A program made the translations under genes and the position numbers. Of a stretch of DNA of 64,000 nt, positions 54,285 to 60,348 are shown piece after piece. Numbering within the stretch: the first letter of the stretch is position 1; each line of letters begins with the position of its first letter. Source of the stretch: Burkholderiales bacterium (lineage in GTDB: Bacteria; Pseudomonadota; Gammaproteobacteria; Burkholderiales; Eutrophovitaceae); the NCBI GenBank assembly GCA_035560005.1, contig DATMAN010000092.1:1-64000 (forward strand), written 5' to 3'. The notes under the pieces were generated by a model. That model made no database searches. It was given only the letters and a program-made list of their open reading frames with translations, and was not told the origin of the DNA.

Positions 54285-55700
54285 CTACGCCGCCGGGGCC
54301 AACTGCCCCTCCGGCCGCGGCCTGCGCTGGAGCTGTTCACTGCGCAGCCGCGCGCGTTCCGCTTCCTCGATCTGGCCCAGCAGGTCCAGGGTCCGGGTCA
54401 TCGTCTGCCAGTTGTACACGCTGTCGGGCTTGAGCGCCGTGCGCTCGGCAAGCAGTGCGCGCGCCAATGACAGGCGACGTCCGCGAATGGCCGCCTCAAC
54501 CAGGGTCAGATGGATCAGATCGCGCTGCGCGTGGCTGCCGCCGAAGCGATGTGCGGTCACGCGCAACGGCTGGAGCAGCTCCACGACCGTTGCGTAGTCC
54601 TCGTTGCCGAACGCTTCCAGCGCGCGGCACAGCGGCAGCCCCACTTCCCAGGTCATGCGAGCGTTGGTGCCGCCTCCGGTCACGCGGCGCTCCAGGACGC
54701 GCAGCAGGGCGCGCGCCGAAGCCCGGCGTCCCGCGCCCGCAAAAGCCATCATGGCGTGTGCGTCGTTGAACGCGTAGTACCCCTCGTCGATGCGCGTTTC
54801 CCAGACGTCGGCGAGCCTCTGCCAGCGCGTACCCGGGTCGGCACCGCGCAGATGCAGCCTCCACAACAACGCGGAGGCATCGATCAGCTCCAGCACCACG
54901 TTCGAATCACGGCGGTGGATCGCACAGTCGTAGAGCTCGAGCACGCGGGCGATCTCGCCGCGATCGAGGTGAAACAGCGCCAGATGCCACCAGTTATGGA
55001 AGGCGAATGCGTTGTCCGGCGCCCAGTCCTTCGCCCGCGAACCGAGCCACTCGATACCCTCCTCGACCCGCCCCTGCATTTCCATCACGTGCGCACCCGC
55101 ATGCACGGCCCAGGGGTCGCGCGGGTTCAGGTCGAGGGCACGGCGCGCGGTGCGCTCCGCTTGCGCGTAAGAACCTGTCTCCTCCAGGCCAAAGGCATAC
55201 ATGCCGAGCACGTAGCCGAAGCCCGGGATGCCTTCGCCCCAACGCGGCAGCACCTGCGCCACGCGATCGCGCAGCATCGCGCTCTGCCCGAGATAGAAGT
55301 CGCCCAGGTGTGCGACCTGCAGCGCCAGCGTGTCGCGCGGATAGTCGAGCAGGATCTGCCCGTAGCGCTGAACCGAGCGCTCGAAACGGCCTTCGAGCCA
55401 GTCGCGCGCCGCAGCCAGGTGCGCGCGCTCGCGCTCGTTGGCTTGGTGCGCCAGTTTCTCTCCGGCTTGCACGCTTTCGCACAGCGCGGGCTGCGCGGAT
55501 TTCTCGGTGGTCGTCACGAGCAGCGCCGCGCGCACGCAATGCCCCATCACGAATTCGGGGTCCTCGGCCAGCGCCTTGTCGACCACGGCGAGCGGATCGC
55601 CGTAGTAGCCGTGGAACAGCTCGACCGCCAGCTCGTAGCGCTGGAGCGAGAGGCGATGGTCGGTCGATACCGGCATGCCCCGCGAATCCTTCAGTCCCAT
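54285..55700 (-). CDS. TTC38-like tetratricopeptide repeat protein
   Basis: A 471-residue all-helical TPR protein resembling the TTC38 family. The N-terminal YELAVELFHGYYGDPL and VDKALAEDPEFVMGHC are typical of that family, and TPR-like helices such as YAQAERTARRALDLNPRDPWAVHA follow. It has no signal peptide or membrane segment, so it is cytoplasmic. The function of bacterial members is unknown. A GGAG Shine-Dalgarno sequence lies six bases before the ATG. An array of CGTGA heptamers begins 63 bp upstream and suggests control by the SARP-type regulator at 56506. Confidence 0.82.
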   Translation of the reverse strand: MGLKDSRGMPVSTDHRLSLQRYELAVELFHGYYGDPLAVVDKALAEDPEFVMGHCVRAALLVTTTEKSAQPALCESVQAGEKLAHQANERERAHLAAARDWLEGRFERSVQRYGQILLDYPRDTLALQVAHLGDFYLGQSAMLRDRVAQVLPRWGEGIPGFGYVLGMYAFGLEETGSYAQAERTARRALDLNPRDPWAVHAGAHVMEMQGRVEEGIEWLGSRAKDWAPDNAFAFHNWWHLALFHLDRGEIARVLELYDCAIHRRDSNVVLELIDASALLWRLHLRGADPGTRWQRLADVWETRIDEGYYAFNDAHAMMAFAGAGRRASARALLRVLERRVTGGGTNARMTWEVGLPLCRALEAFGNEDYATVVELLQPLRVTAHRFGGSHAQRDLIHLTLVEAAIRGRRLSLARALLAERTALKPDSVYNWQTMTRTLDLLGQIEEAERARLRSEQLQRRPRPEGQLAPAA

Positions 55701-55762
55701 CTCCGTCTCCGTGGTATTCCCGTCCGGCGGCAGCCGGCGATGAGGGCATCTTCCGGGGACAG

Positions 55763-55803
55763 CGTGACGGGCCCGTGACGCGCAACGTGAAAATCGCGTG
55801 AAA
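55763..55803. promoter_or_regulatory. Heptamer array 1, candidate SARP-type operator
   Basis: Four heptamers read CGTGACG (55763), CGTGACG (55774), CGTGAAA (55786) and CGTGAAA (55797), spaced 11, 12 and 11 bp. SARP activators bind heptameric direct repeats at 11-bp spacing. The array lies 63-103 bp upstream of the TPR gene. The last two boxes with their spacer (CGTGAAAATCGCGTGAAAG) recur identically in array 2. Confidence 0.65.
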
Positions 55804-55816
55804 GCGCGCGTGCGAA

Positions 55817-56287
55817 TCAGCGGCGCAGCAGTCGAATCAGAGCCCGGCGGGAGTTGTCCGGGCCGTAACGCACCTCGATTCCGGTAGGTTGGAATCCCAG
55901 CTTGGCATAGAGCAGCAGGCCGGCGGTGTTGTCGCTGGGACAGTCCGTTTCGATTTCGGCCGCCTGATAGCGCTCCCGCGCGAGGCGCAACATCGCCTCG
56001 ATCAGGTAGCGGCCGACTCCCCGGCCCCGGAACTCCGAGGCGACGATCACGTTGCCCAGGGCGCAGCGGCCTTCACGCTCGACCCGCGTGAAGTTGGCGA
56101 AACCGGCGATGCGCCTGTCCATGAGCACTACGGTGGGATCATGGCTTTGCGCCATGGCGTGCCGAACCTGCTCGGGGGTCAGCGGGAAGCGGGCGCGCGG
56201 ATGAAAGTAATAGAGTTCCTGCGCGGAACCGACCAGGCGGCAGATGCCCGGCAGATCGGCTTCCTCGGCGGGACGATGGCTCAACAT
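55817..56287 (-). CDS. GNAT-family N-acetyltransferase
   Basis: A 156-residue GNAT. The acetyl-CoA-binding motif A is VIVASEFRGRGVGRYLIEAML with the R-x-x-G-x-G loop, and motif B has LLLYAKLGFQPTG. The target is unknown (small molecule or protein N-terminus/Lys). A GGGAGAGCG ribosome binding site precedes the ATG at 56287. It sits between the TPR gene and the SARP-type regulator, bracketed by the two heptamer arrays. Confidence 0.87.
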   Translation of the reverse strand: MLSHRPAEEADLPGICRLVGSAQELYYFHPRARFPLTPEQVRHAMAQSHDPTVVLMDRRIAGFANFTRVEREGRCALGNVIVASEFRGRGVGRYLIEAMLRLARERYQAAEIETDCPSDNTAGLLLYAKLGFQPTGIEVRYGPDNSRRALIRLLRR

Positions 56288-56432
56288 AAATCGCTCTCCC
56301 TTGGTTGTCCTGGCGGCTTGTCGCTCGTTGGCGGCGCAGCAGGTGGCCGACCCGCCGAACGGTGAAATACAATTTGACGACATATGCCGGCGGCGGACGA
56401 AGTGCAAGCCACTTACCATCCTGAACCGCGGG

Positions 56433-56473
56433 CGTGAAGAAACCGGCGATCCGCGCGTGAAAATCGCGTGAAA
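56433..56473. promoter_or_regulatory. Heptamer array 2, candidate SARP-type operator
   Basis: Heptamers CGTGAAG (56433), CGTGAAA (56456) and CGTGAAA (56467) sit at offsets 0, 23 and 34, exactly the offsets of boxes 1, 3 and 4 in array 1; the position of box 2 is degenerate (CGGCGAT at 56444). The array ends 32 bp before the GTG of the regulator and also lies 146 bp upstream of the divergent GNAT, so it could serve either or both. Confidence 0.65.
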
Positions 56474-56505: not shown

Positions 56506-59500
56506 GTGACATCCCTGCGCCTGAGCGTGCTGGGCGGCTTCGAGCTTCACTCGCACGCCGGCACGCCGATACAGCTGCCGCCCAAGAAGGCGCGGGCTCT
56601 GTTCGCCTATCTGGCGCTCACCGAGCCGCGCCCCCAACCGCGCGACAAGCTGGCTGCCCTGCTTTGGGAGGACAGCAGCGACTCCCAGGCGCGCACCAGC
56701 CTGCGGCAGGCCTTGAGCGCCATCCGCCGCGCACTGGCAGCGGCCGAGGTCTTGCTCGACGCCGATGCCGAGACTGTCTGGCTGAGGCGTGAAGGCCTGC
56801 TGATCGATGCCGACCAGTTCCAGCAATGCGCGGCCGGCGCCTCGGTCGAGCGCTTGCGCGAAGCGGTCGAGCTCTACCGCGGCTCGCTGCTGGACGGTTT
56901 TGACATCCGCGCCCCGGCTTTCGAAGACTGGCTGCGCGCCGAGCGTGAGCGGCTGCGCAACCTGGCGCTCGGTGCGCTCTCGGCGCTGGTCGACCATGAC
57001 ATGCGCGGCGCAAATCATGGCGAGGCGCTGTTCCACACGAGCCGGCTGCTCGCGCTCGATCCCCTGCGCGAAGAGGCGCATCGCGCCGTCATGCGCATCT
57101 ACGCCGCGCAGGGCCGGCATGCCCAGGCGATCGAACAATACCGCCGCTGCCGCGAGGCGCTGCGCCTGGATCTGGGTGTCAATCCCGGTCCGGAAACCGA
57201 ACAGCTCTATCGCGAAATCCTGGAACAGCGCCGCACGCCGGTCTCGGCGGCGCGCGAAGAGGCTCCCCCGCCCGTCGCCGTCGGGACGGCGCCCGCGGCG
57301 CAGACGGACGCCCGTCCGCGCCTGCGCCATGCGCAGGTGCTGCTGGTCGACATCGACGGATTCACCGCCCTGGCGGGCGCGACCGATCCGGAGGATCTGC
57401 ACGAATTCCTGACCCGTTACCGCCAGACCGTGCGCGGCAAAGTGCAGGAAGAAGGCGGCACGGTCACCAATTACATCCAGGCCCGGGTGATGGCCGTGTT
57501 CGGCGTCCCCGTAGCCTACGGCAACGATGCCGAACGCGCGGTGCGCGGTGCGCTGGCGGTGCGCGACGAGGTGCCGCAACTGGCCAACCCGTCCAGCGCC
57601 CCGCTCCAGGTCCGGCTTGGCGTGGCGAGCGGCCCGGTACTGGCCAGCCGCGACGAAGCCGGGCTGACGATCACCGGCGAGCCGGTCAGCGTGGCCGCGC
57701 GCATCATGGAAAGCGCGCACGCGGGCGAGCTGAGGCTCGCCGCCGACGTGCGCGAGGCGCTCGGCGAGCGGCTGGTCGCCGAGCCCATCGCGGAGGCGGT
57801 GGTACCGGCGCTGCACAAACCGCTGGGCCTGTGGCGTGCCATTGCGCTGAACTCGGAGGCAGGCGAGCGCGCAATCTTCGTCGGCCGGCAGGCGGAGCTG
57901 CGCCAGCTCGAAGACCTGCTTGCCGCGTGTGCGGCTTCCGGCACCGGGCGGGCCGTGCTGATCCGCGGCGAGGCGGGCATCGGCAAGAGCCGACTGGTCG
58001 AGGAGCTGGCGCGCCGTGCCCGGCAATCGACCTTCGCCACGCAGGTGATCGCCAACCTGGAGTTCGGCAGCACAACGAATCGCCCGATTGTTCAGCTAGC
58101 GCGTGGCCTGCTCGGGATCTCGCCGCGGGCCGATGCCGAAACCCTCTCCTTTGCCCTGCACCGCGCGGGAGAGGACCGGATCGTCGCGCCGGATCTGCGC
58201 CAGTGCCTGGCCGAGTTGCTGGATGCCGTGACGGTCGGCGAGGCGCGAAGAGCCGAGGAAACCGGGGACAGCATGGCCCGGGTGCGCGGCAGACACAGCG
58301 TGCTCTCCGCCCTGGTGGCGACCGCATCCAGGAAGAGACCCCTGCTGATCGCGGTTGAAGACCTGCAATGGGCCGACCCCGTCACGCTCGATTATCTGGC
58401 GAGCGTGGCCGCTGCGGCGCGCAGTGCTCCGGTGGTACTGGCGATGACCACGCGCAGCGAAAGCGACCCGATCGGAAGCGCCTGGCGGGCTGCGTCCGGA
58501 GGTTGCCCGCTCACGACCATCGACCTCGGCCCCCTCACGCAGAACGAGGCCATGCAGCTCGCGGCACGGCTCGCCCCGGATCCCGAATTCGCGCGGAACT
58601 GCGTGGCCCGCGCCAGCGGCCATCCGCTGTTTCTCGACCAGTTGCTGCGCGCTGGTTCGGCCTCCGGAGCGCTGCCCGGTTCCTTGCAGAGCCTGGTGCT
58701 CGCGCGCCTGGACCGGCTCGCGGTCCAGGACCGCGATGCCCTCCAGGCCGCGGCGGTGCTCGGACAGCGCTTCCCGGCCGAGGCGCTGCTTCACCTGATG
58801 GGCGACGAAGGCTATGCGCCCCACCGGCTGGTCGAGCGGGGTCTGCTGCGACCGGATGCCGGCGACTACGTATTCGTGCATGCGCTCATTCAGGAGGCGG
58901 TGTACGGATCGATCCTGAAGTCGCATCGTTTTGATCTGCATCTGCAGGCCGCGCGCTGGTTCTCCGAGCGCGATTCCATGCTGGAGGCACAGCACCTCGG
59001 GGCCGCCGGTCACCCGGGCGCGCCGGCCGCCTACCTGCGAGCGGCGAGGGAGCTGGCGGCGGGCTACCGAACGCGTCAGGCCCTGGATCTGATCTCGCGC
59101 GGACTCGGACTCGCTCCGCAGGAGAGCGAACGCTGCGACCTGCTGCTGGCGCGCGCGGATTGCCTGCGCGATCTGGGCGAAACCGAGCGGTCGGTGCAGG
59201 CCTGCGGAGAAGCGCTGCACGCGGCGCAGAACGACGCACAGCGTTGCCGCGCCTGGATCGGGATCGCCAGCGGGCTGCGCATCCTCGACCGCTACGACCG
59301 CGCGCTTGCGGCGCTCGACCACGCCCTGCCGCTGGCGCAGGCGTTGGGCGATACCCATGCCCTGATGCAGATCCATTCGCTGCGCGGCAACATCCACTTC
59401 CCGCGCGGTGACCTCGCCAACTGCCTCGCCGCGCACGAGGAGGCGCGCCGGCTCGCGCTCGAGATCGGCGCACCCGCGGAAGAGGCGCGTGCGCTGAGCG

Positions 59501-60348
59501 GGCTGGGCGATGCGCACTATCAGAGCGCTCGGGTGCGGAGCGCGCGCGACTACTACGGGCGCTGCGTCAAGCTGGCGCGCGCTCATGGCCTCACTCGCAT
59601 CGAAGCGACGAACCTGCCCATGGTGGCGATCGCCGCGTTCTACTGCGGGGAAACTGACACTGCAGTCGACCAATGCCGCGAGGGACTGGCGCAGTCCACC
59701 CGCATCGGCGATTTCCGCGCGCAGATGCTGGCTCACAACGTGCTCGCAAGCGTGCACTACTATCGCGGCGAACACCAGGCGTCTCTTGCCAGTGCCGAAC
59801 GCGCGCTGGAACTGTCGCAGCGACTGGGCACGCGGCGTTTCGAAGCCAGAGCATTGATGATGATTGCGGTCGCACGCCATGCGGGCGGCCACGCCGGAAC
59901 CGATGAGTCGCTGCTCGACTCGGCATGGAACATCGTGCAGGAGACCGGACCGAACTTCAGCGGACCGTGGATTCTGGGAGCGATGACGCTGGTGTTGCGC
60001 GACGAAGCGCGTCGCCGGCGGGCGCTCGCGGACGGCGAGGCCCTGCTCGCCAAAGGCTGCGTCAGCCACAACCATTTCCACTTCTATCAGTACGCGATCG
60101 ACTTTGCGCTGGAAACGGGCCAGTGGGACGAAGCCGAGCGCTATGCGGCGGCGCTGGAGAACTACACCGCTTCCGAGCCGCTGACTTGGACGGACTTGAT
60201 CGCGGCGCGCGGGCGCGTGCTGGCGCGCGCCGGCCGCGGCGAACGCTCCGAGTCACTGAGACAGGAAGCCCAGGCGCTCGCCGCGTCGCTCACGGCAATG
60301 GCGCTGGAACCCGCCGCGAAGGCCCTGGAACGCGCGTTCGCGGATTGA
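56506..60348 (+). CDS. SARP/BTAD regulator with pseudo-cyclase, ATPase and TPR domains
   Basis: A 1280-residue cytoplasmic multidomain regulator. Residues 1-90 form a winged-helix DNA-binding domain and about 91-245 a BTAD (SARP) helical domain (FEDWLRAERERLRNLALGALSAL). Residues 272-445 are a class III cyclase-like domain: the first metal Asp is present (D282 in VDIDGF), but the second is Ala326 in YIQARVMAVFG, and the usual Asn before AAR is Ser, so catalysis is unlikely. An AAA/STAND-type ATPase follows (Walker A RGEAGIGKSRLV near 490; Walker B AVEDLQWAD), then TPR-like helices from about 810. The start is GTG. It probably senses a ligand through the ATPase-TPR module and activates transcription. 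Confidence 0.88.
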   Translation: MTSLRLSVLGGFELHSHAGTPIQLPPKKARALFAYLALTEPRPQPRDKLAALLWEDSSDSQARTSLRQALSAIRRALAAAEVLLDADAETVWLRREGLLIDADQFQQCAAGASVERLREAVELYRGSLLDGFDIRAPAFEDWLRAERERLRNLALGALSALVDHDMRGANHGEALFHTSRLLALDPLREEAHRAVMRIYAAQGRHAQAIEQYRRCREALRLDLGVNPGPETEQLYREILEQRRTPVSAAREEAPPPVAVGTAPAAQTDARPRLRHAQVLLVDIDGFTALAGATDPEDLHEFLTRYRQTVRGKVQEEGGTVTNYIQARVMAVFGVPVAYGNDAERAVRGALAVRDEVPQLANPSSAPLQVRLGVASGPVLASRDEAGLTITGEPVSVAARIMESAHAGELRLAADVREALGERLVAEPIAEAVVPALHKPLGLWRAIALNSEAGERAIFVGRQAELRQLEDLLAACAASGTGRAVLIRGEAGIGKSRLVEELARRARQSTFATQVIANLEFGSTTNRPIVQLARGLLGISPRADAETLSFALHRAGEDRIVAPDLRQCLAELLDAVTVGEARRAEETGDSMARVRGRHSVLSALVATASRKRPLLIAVEDLQWADPVTLDYLASVAAAARSAPVVLAMTTRSESDPIGSAWRAASGGCPLTTIDLGPLTQNEAMQLAARLAPDPEFARNCVARASGHPLFLDQLLRAGSASGALPGSLQSLVLARLDRLAVQDRDALQAAAVLGQRFPAEALLHLMGDEGYAPHRLVERGLLRPDAGDYVFVHALIQEAVYGSILKSHRFDLHLQAARWFSERDSMLEAQHLGAAGHPGAPAAYLRAARELAAGYRTRQALDLISRGLGLAPQESERCDLLLARADCLRDLGETERSVQACGEALHAAQNDAQRCRAWIGIASGLRILDRYDRALAALDHALPLAQALGDTHALMQIHSLRGNIHFPRGDLANCLAAHEEARRLALEIGAPAEEARALSGLGDAHYQSARVRSARDYYGRCVKLARAHGLTRIEATNLPMVAIAAFYCGETDTAVDQCREGLAQSTRIGDFRAQMLAHNVLASVHYYRGEHQASLASAERALELSQRLGTRRFEARALMMIAVARHAGGHAGTDESLLDSAWNIVQETGPNFSGPWILGAMTLVLRDEARRRRALADGEALLAKGCVSHNHFHFYQYAIDFALETGQWDEAERYAAALENYTASEPLTWTDLIAARGRVLARAGRGERSESLRQEAQALAASLTAMALEPAAKALERAFAD

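Follow-up and report, generated by a model that had tools for sequence, protein, structure and literature searches.

Two phased heptamer arrays in the window, as we call the whole 64,000-nucleotide stretch of Burkholderiales DNA analysed here, are very probably four-box operators of the adjacent SARP-LAL regulator, serving a small regulon. The arrays are conserved and phased, they co-occur with the regulator, and they stand at a fixed spacing from a -10-like hexamer; the recognition helix of the regulators that own them is likewise conserved. From these patterns we infer that the regulator binds the arrays, that it activates its targets rather than repressing them, that two dimers are bound, and that the ATPase and TPR parts act as a gate.

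Read directly on the plus strand, array 1 (55763..55803) is CGTGACG-GGCC-CGTGACG-CGCAA-CGTGAAA-ATCG-CGTGAAA, with offsets of 0/11/23/34, and array 2 (56433..56473) is CGTGAAG-AAAC-CGGCGAT-CCGCG-CGTGAAA-ATCG-CGTGAAA, with a degenerate box at +11. As putative operators both are assigned to the minus strand, where they read TTTCACG-4-TTTCACG-5-CGTCACG-4-CGTCACG and TTTCACG-4-TTTCACG-5-ATCGCCG-4-CTTCACG, respectively, and the 19-mer CGTGAAAATCGCGTGAAAG is common to the two, spacer included. The array coordinates, the 0/11/23/34 offsets, the identical 19-bp core, and the degenerate array 2 box at +11 are thus as given in the original prediction, which had also placed the regulator between the arrays; the gene that sits there is instead a minus-strand GNAT-family acetyltransferase, and the regulator comes after array 2, on its right, with 33 nt between the end of that array and the regulator start codon. 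A genome scan for CGTGAAA pairs at 11 bp, proposed at the same time, found the exact pair CGTGAAA-N4-CGTGAAA only at arrays 1 and 2, in the window and also in the 3.6-Mb genome, and not in many copies. With box 1 added (CGTGA-N18-CGTGAA-N5-CGTGAA), the genome holds three exact sites, namely both arrays and G000:C63:95338-95377, and none in the reversed-pattern control; the candidate regulon proposed earlier is thus supported as a small one. Pairs with three or fewer mismatches were not enriched in the window (3 found vs 3.7 expected), so the signal lies in the exact pair and its phase rather than in the loose motif. One other site in the same genome, C48:12207, is weak and without box 1, and was dropped.

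The regulator gene (56506..60348, plus strand) encodes a protein of 1280 aa, whose domains were assigned with Pfam, comparison by sequence with AfsR structures, and alignments. A winged HTH (residues about 1-100) precedes a BTAD domain (111-239; PF03704, E 7e-28), a class III cyclase-like domain (276-420, window 57331-57765; PF00211), and an AAA_16 ATPase (458-644; PF13191), and Pfam places TPR repeats in the C-terminal part, where it finds no match to a LuxR-type HTH. By sequence, the AfsR structures 8hvr, 8k60, and 8jke align with residues 4-240, which span the winged HTH and BTAD (best E 8e-13); Pfam makes no report of Trans_reg_C for the window regulator itself, and places this domain above cut-off in the relative from G675. 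The BTAD domain, the winged HTH match, and the conserved arrays described below support the proposal of SARP-type operators beside a regulator of matching architecture. Among the matches listed, the best in Pseudomonadota are 50-40% identical over the DNA-binding part, versus 27-34% for Streptomyces. Active class III cyclases carry an IGD motif. Alignment shows IQA instead of IGD in the regulator, and its cyclase-like domain is therefore probably catalytically inactive; the Walker A motif of the ATPase is intact (GEAGIGKS). Among relatives, the catalytic residues of the cyclase-like domain have apparently been lost in different ways, and the ATPase Walker A is kept.

In nine aligned array-owning regulators the recognition helix conforms to (S/N)LRQA..(A/T)(I/L)R(R/K), with Q68 invariant and A or T at position 72 in all nine. 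The AfsR DNA-contact residues W74, R87, R94, and K95 (the last as K or R) are kept throughout this set, and the AfsR base-contact residue T88 is replaced by Q in every case and R92 by A or T. The shared altered helix would fit the shared altered heptamer.

An array lies just upstream of each of the 13 full-length regulators examined, one of them in the window, seven in genus g32 (same order as the window genome but a different family), and five in a second order. Full-length relatives of the regulator, 42-46% identical, occur in four g32 genomes, and the TPR gene, 61-63% identical and divergent from the regulator, in G348, G169, G131, and G397 of that genus, where one array with boxes at exactly 0/11/23/34 stands between the two divergent genes. 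The genome G675, in a further order, was reached by a class-level search with the TPR protein, and for all five full-length regulators of its genus the array likewise stands in the gap between the regulator gene and a divergent TPR gene. Upstream regions in the second order scored 18-21 of 22, whereas 10,000 resampled ones reached no more than 17. Across the two orders, boxes 1, 3, and 4 hold 1.57-2.0 bits per position versus 0.2-0.7 in the spacers, and the comparison of orthologous intergenic regions suggested with the original prediction thus finds the boxes conserved in both g32 and the second order. Four regulator relatives without the SARP DNA-binding domain have no array, nor do six TPR-gene homologues without a regulator; the array therefore follows the regulator and not the TPR gene. 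A contig scan returned mostly distant cyclase/ATPase relatives without a SARP domain.

As judged from these comparisons, the TPR gene, array, and regulator appear to form the ancestral arrangement. The GNAT gene lies between the TPR gene and the regulator in the window genome only, and no GNAT match was found at related loci in the g32 and second-order genomes examined. Because the two window arrays share an identical 19-mer that includes the spacer, the layout suggests that the operator was duplicated in this one genome and that the GNAT gene was thereby brought under control.

Two scans made blind to gene content recovered the same association. A four-box scan allowing one mismatch gave eight matches in 399 genomes, the window and seven more, each upstream of a regulator relative, with none in the reversed control. 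An exact three-box scan of 296 second-order genomes, which made no reference to genes, gave 12 sites, all in the five regulator-encoding genomes (the reversed control gave 1 match); five of these are at TPR-regulator loci and seven elsewhere. The exact pattern had no site in the other 291 second-order genomes, including G801, which belongs to the same genus as the five and for which the regulator search listed none at its cut-off. An operator scan of viral contigs gave no match.

On the strand that faces the TPR gene, GNAT gene, or other divergent gene, the operator reads TTTCACG-4-TTTCACG-5-nnnnnnn-4-nnTCACG, and a -10-like hexamer lies exactly 9 nt past the last box on that side in 15 of the 15 arrays scored. 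In the window genome these hexamers are GAAGAT at array 1 (55748..55753, minus strand; a putative TPR promoter), CAGGAT at array 2 (56418..56423, minus strand; a putative GNAT promoter), and GATGAT at the C63 site; the other 12 arrays have TTGAAT (three times), TTCAAT, GAGACT, CAGACT, CAAACT, TAGAAA, TAAAAA, and TACAAA (three times). Scored with an approximate matrix of E. coli type based on general knowledge, to which all -10 scores here refer, the first nine arrays averaged 3.8 bits at 9 nt versus at most -2.4 at the other offsets tried, and their regulator (CGTGAAA) side had no -10 peak at a fixed spacing. As the 9-nt rule was drawn from these nine, the remaining sets are genuine tests of it. 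The hold-out set (C63 and five second-order arrays) scored 5.03 bits at 9 nt and 0.26 at the next offset, and the seven blind sites elsewhere scored 4.10 and -2.05, a result reached in 0 of 300,000 random-offset draws, which overstate independence because sequences within a genus are related.

A fixed -10 at 9 nt on the TTTCACG side indicates that the TPR gene is the one faced by array 1, and the GNAT gene the one faced by array 2. It had been noted earlier, without explanation, that the boxes face opposite ways relative to the TPR and regulator genes; the opposite facing is seen, and it is explained by both arrays facing minus-strand genes. The autoregulation proposed on that occasion is not supported in the form of activation through array 2, as the regulator side has no constantly spaced -10 and the distance from array to regulator varies widely (about 70 to 440 nt). 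The regulator may still repress its own gene or affect it divergently.

The likely main target is the TPR-repeat protein gene (54285..55700, minus strand; 471 aa), in which Pfam finds TPR_17/TPR_19; the TPR part of the earlier label "TTC38-like TPR gene" is thereby supported, and the TTC38-like part was not confirmed. A paralogue, 38% identical, lies at L123:7677-9011 (G000:C16), with no regulator match in the surrounding stretch. The candidate second target is the GNAT gene (55817..56287, minus strand; 156 aa from the ATG at 56287; Pfam Acetyltransf_1). Its putative link to array 2 is the weakest of the set, with a poor -10 (CAGGAT is the weakest hexamer among the 15 arrays scored), a putative leader of about 125 nt, and a single genome. 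At the C63 site, the hexamer at 9 nt leads to an 86-aa secreted-type protein (L125/L126; the labels "secreted-type" and "TPR-like" denote sequences judged by eye). On the other side of that site starts a gene for a 204-aa protein with no Pfam match.

Target genes differ between genomes. Three of the array loci, in G234, G044, and G204, have no TPR gene. The G234 array faces a second BTAD protein of 511 aa (L118:9464-10996; BTAD at 344-486), which suggests a two-tier regulator circuit, and the G044 and G204 arrays (L119, L120) face, on the minus-strand side, secreted-type proteins that are homologous to each other and about 175 aa long (GEFGWFGVGKAYEIDKGHYYWVGEFSGTFF...), the G204 one having no Pfam match. 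Candidate operator targets in G675 and G981 include secreted-type proteins that are homologous between the two genomes (39% identical, E 9e-24). Another candidate in G981, an ABC_membrane transporter that we take to be type I secretion-like, has a 59.5% identical counterpart in G348 behind a two-mismatch site, and no operator support at the G977 orthologue. Further candidates are an HGSNAT-type membrane protein (G981), a TPR-like protein (G997), and a short secreted-type protein (G977). A small secreted-type protein (MDVCIDAFVAQQLP... / MDACIEAFVTDELP...) is conserved behind blind sites in two genomes (L172, L181), with no Pfam match for the one tested. A possible further target, the MQTLAI... 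protein of G348, G169, and G131, with its -10-like hexamer at 8 nt instead of 9, was excluded from the counts. Among the neighbours examined at this and related loci, none looks biosynthetic, in keeping with the expectation of a setting outside actinomycete antibiotic clusters.

A mechanism can be proposed in which four heptamer slots spaced at 11/12/11 bp would allow two protomer pairs to occupy one face of the DNA. The two distal boxes, which are nearly invariant, would anchor one pair; the proximal pair, on one good box and one degenerate box that covers the -35 position, would make AfsR-like contacts with sigma region 4 and RNA polymerase, next to a poor -10 that lies 9 nt past the operator. 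In this way the TPR gene would be driven from array 1, the GNAT gene from array 2, and the small secreted-type protein from the third site, on contig C63.

This geometry is close to that of AfsR at the afs box of Streptomyces coelicolor, with which it shares 11-bp direct repeats and a TTCA core (PMC10936776). AfsR contacts T-27 of its downstream repeat, together with the C that pairs with template position -25 (PMC10936776); with the -10 starting at -12, as inferred from the usual numbering and in agreement with the 8-bp figure in PMC7040171, this gives 13 nt from the C to the -10, equal to the distance found here. A poor -10 and several DNA-contact residues are also held in common, and one blind site has CACTGT, the -10 of afsS. 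AfsR differs in having two repeats, in carrying T88 and R92 where the window regulator has Q68 and A72, and in having NOD and TPR parts and no cyclase-like domain. PimR and other Streptomyces SARP-LALs (PMC5930380, PMC10972967) resemble the window regulator in following the SARP part with a cyclase-like and a large ATP-binding part and in being without a C-terminal LuxR HTH, and their sites are likewise heptamer direct repeats with 4-bp spacers, intergenic to a divergent target whose identity is not conserved. The PimR site is, however, a CGGCAAG triplet plus doublet, unlike the four 11/12/11 slots, TTTCACG heptamer, and degenerate third slot seen here, and the probable targets here include a TPR protein and small secreted-type proteins, among others.

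In an alternative scenario, the regulator would use the arrays as its operators chiefly to control its own gene, by autorepression or autoactivation. An array upstream of nearly every regulator examined, in three cases without a TPR gene, would fit this, as would, for autorepression, the mere 33 nt from array 2 to the start codon; nevertheless, a regulator distance ranging over hundreds of nucleotides contrasts with the constant 9 nt to the -10 on the opposite side, array 1 adjoins no regulator gene in the window, and the blind sites away from regulator loci retain the 9-nt geometry. We therefore regard mainly autoregulatory arrays as improbable.

PhoB and PhoP likewise have sites made of direct repeats, again at a pitch of 11 bp. 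Assignment of the arrays to such another OmpR-family protein draws some support from the overlap of AfsR and PhoP sites at Streptomyces afsS (PMC10972967), but it seems very unlikely given that exact sites in the 296-genome scan are confined to regulator-encoding genomes and that the window genome has three sites, where one would expect most genomes to have a phosphate regulon; the core and genomic distribution also differ from those of Pho boxes, and the arrays are tied to the regulator. The identical 19-mer of the two window copies hints at duplication or conversion, and could be read as a sign that the arrays are chance matches or non-functional remnants of local duplication; conserved boxes amid variable spacers across two orders and the specificity of both blind scans contradict this, leaving it a negligible likelihood. 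Operators of the adjacent regulator that face divergent target genes remain our favoured reading.

SARPs are known as actinomycete antibiotic switches. In one survey, matches in Proteobacteria were mostly without HTH or BTAD and may not be typical SARPs (PMC7040171). Two Skermanella regulators, 50% identical in the DNA-binding part, have no such array upstream, which shows that not every member of the wider family has the operator. It is conceivable, although we hold this only tentatively, that large SARPs of a non-actinobacterial branch work in general through a four-slot 11/12/11 operator, with a TPR partner, a secreted or export-related regulon, a constant four-slot phase, and a heptamer that drifts (CGTGAAA, CGTAAAA, CGTCAAA). 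When nine pitches were compared at 22 named Pseudomonadota plasmid loci, a middle pitch of 12 bp scored best (z 4.0), a 9-bp pitch also reached 3.1, and most single loci were not significant; four-box-like arrays were seen in Azospirillum ramasamyi, Sinorhizobium terangae, and Rhizobium etli, and for a four-slot phase with drifting heptamers this survey is only a lead. The Rhizobium etli IE4803 plasmid (L200) and the Sinorhizobium terangae plasmid (L192) share CGTCARN-4-TGTGAGR-5-YGTGATG-4-CGTAAAA upstream of SARP-domain genes.

The regulator described here combines HTH and BTAD domains with a conserved operator, a promoter geometry that matches AfsR, and a short list of targets. It makes possible direct tests of AfsR-type sigma adaptation outside actinobacteria and of the reason for four slots, and opens to the same approach the signals sensed by the STAND-like ATPase and the TPR partner; wherever a genome carries the regulator, its regulon can be predicted from the operator pattern.
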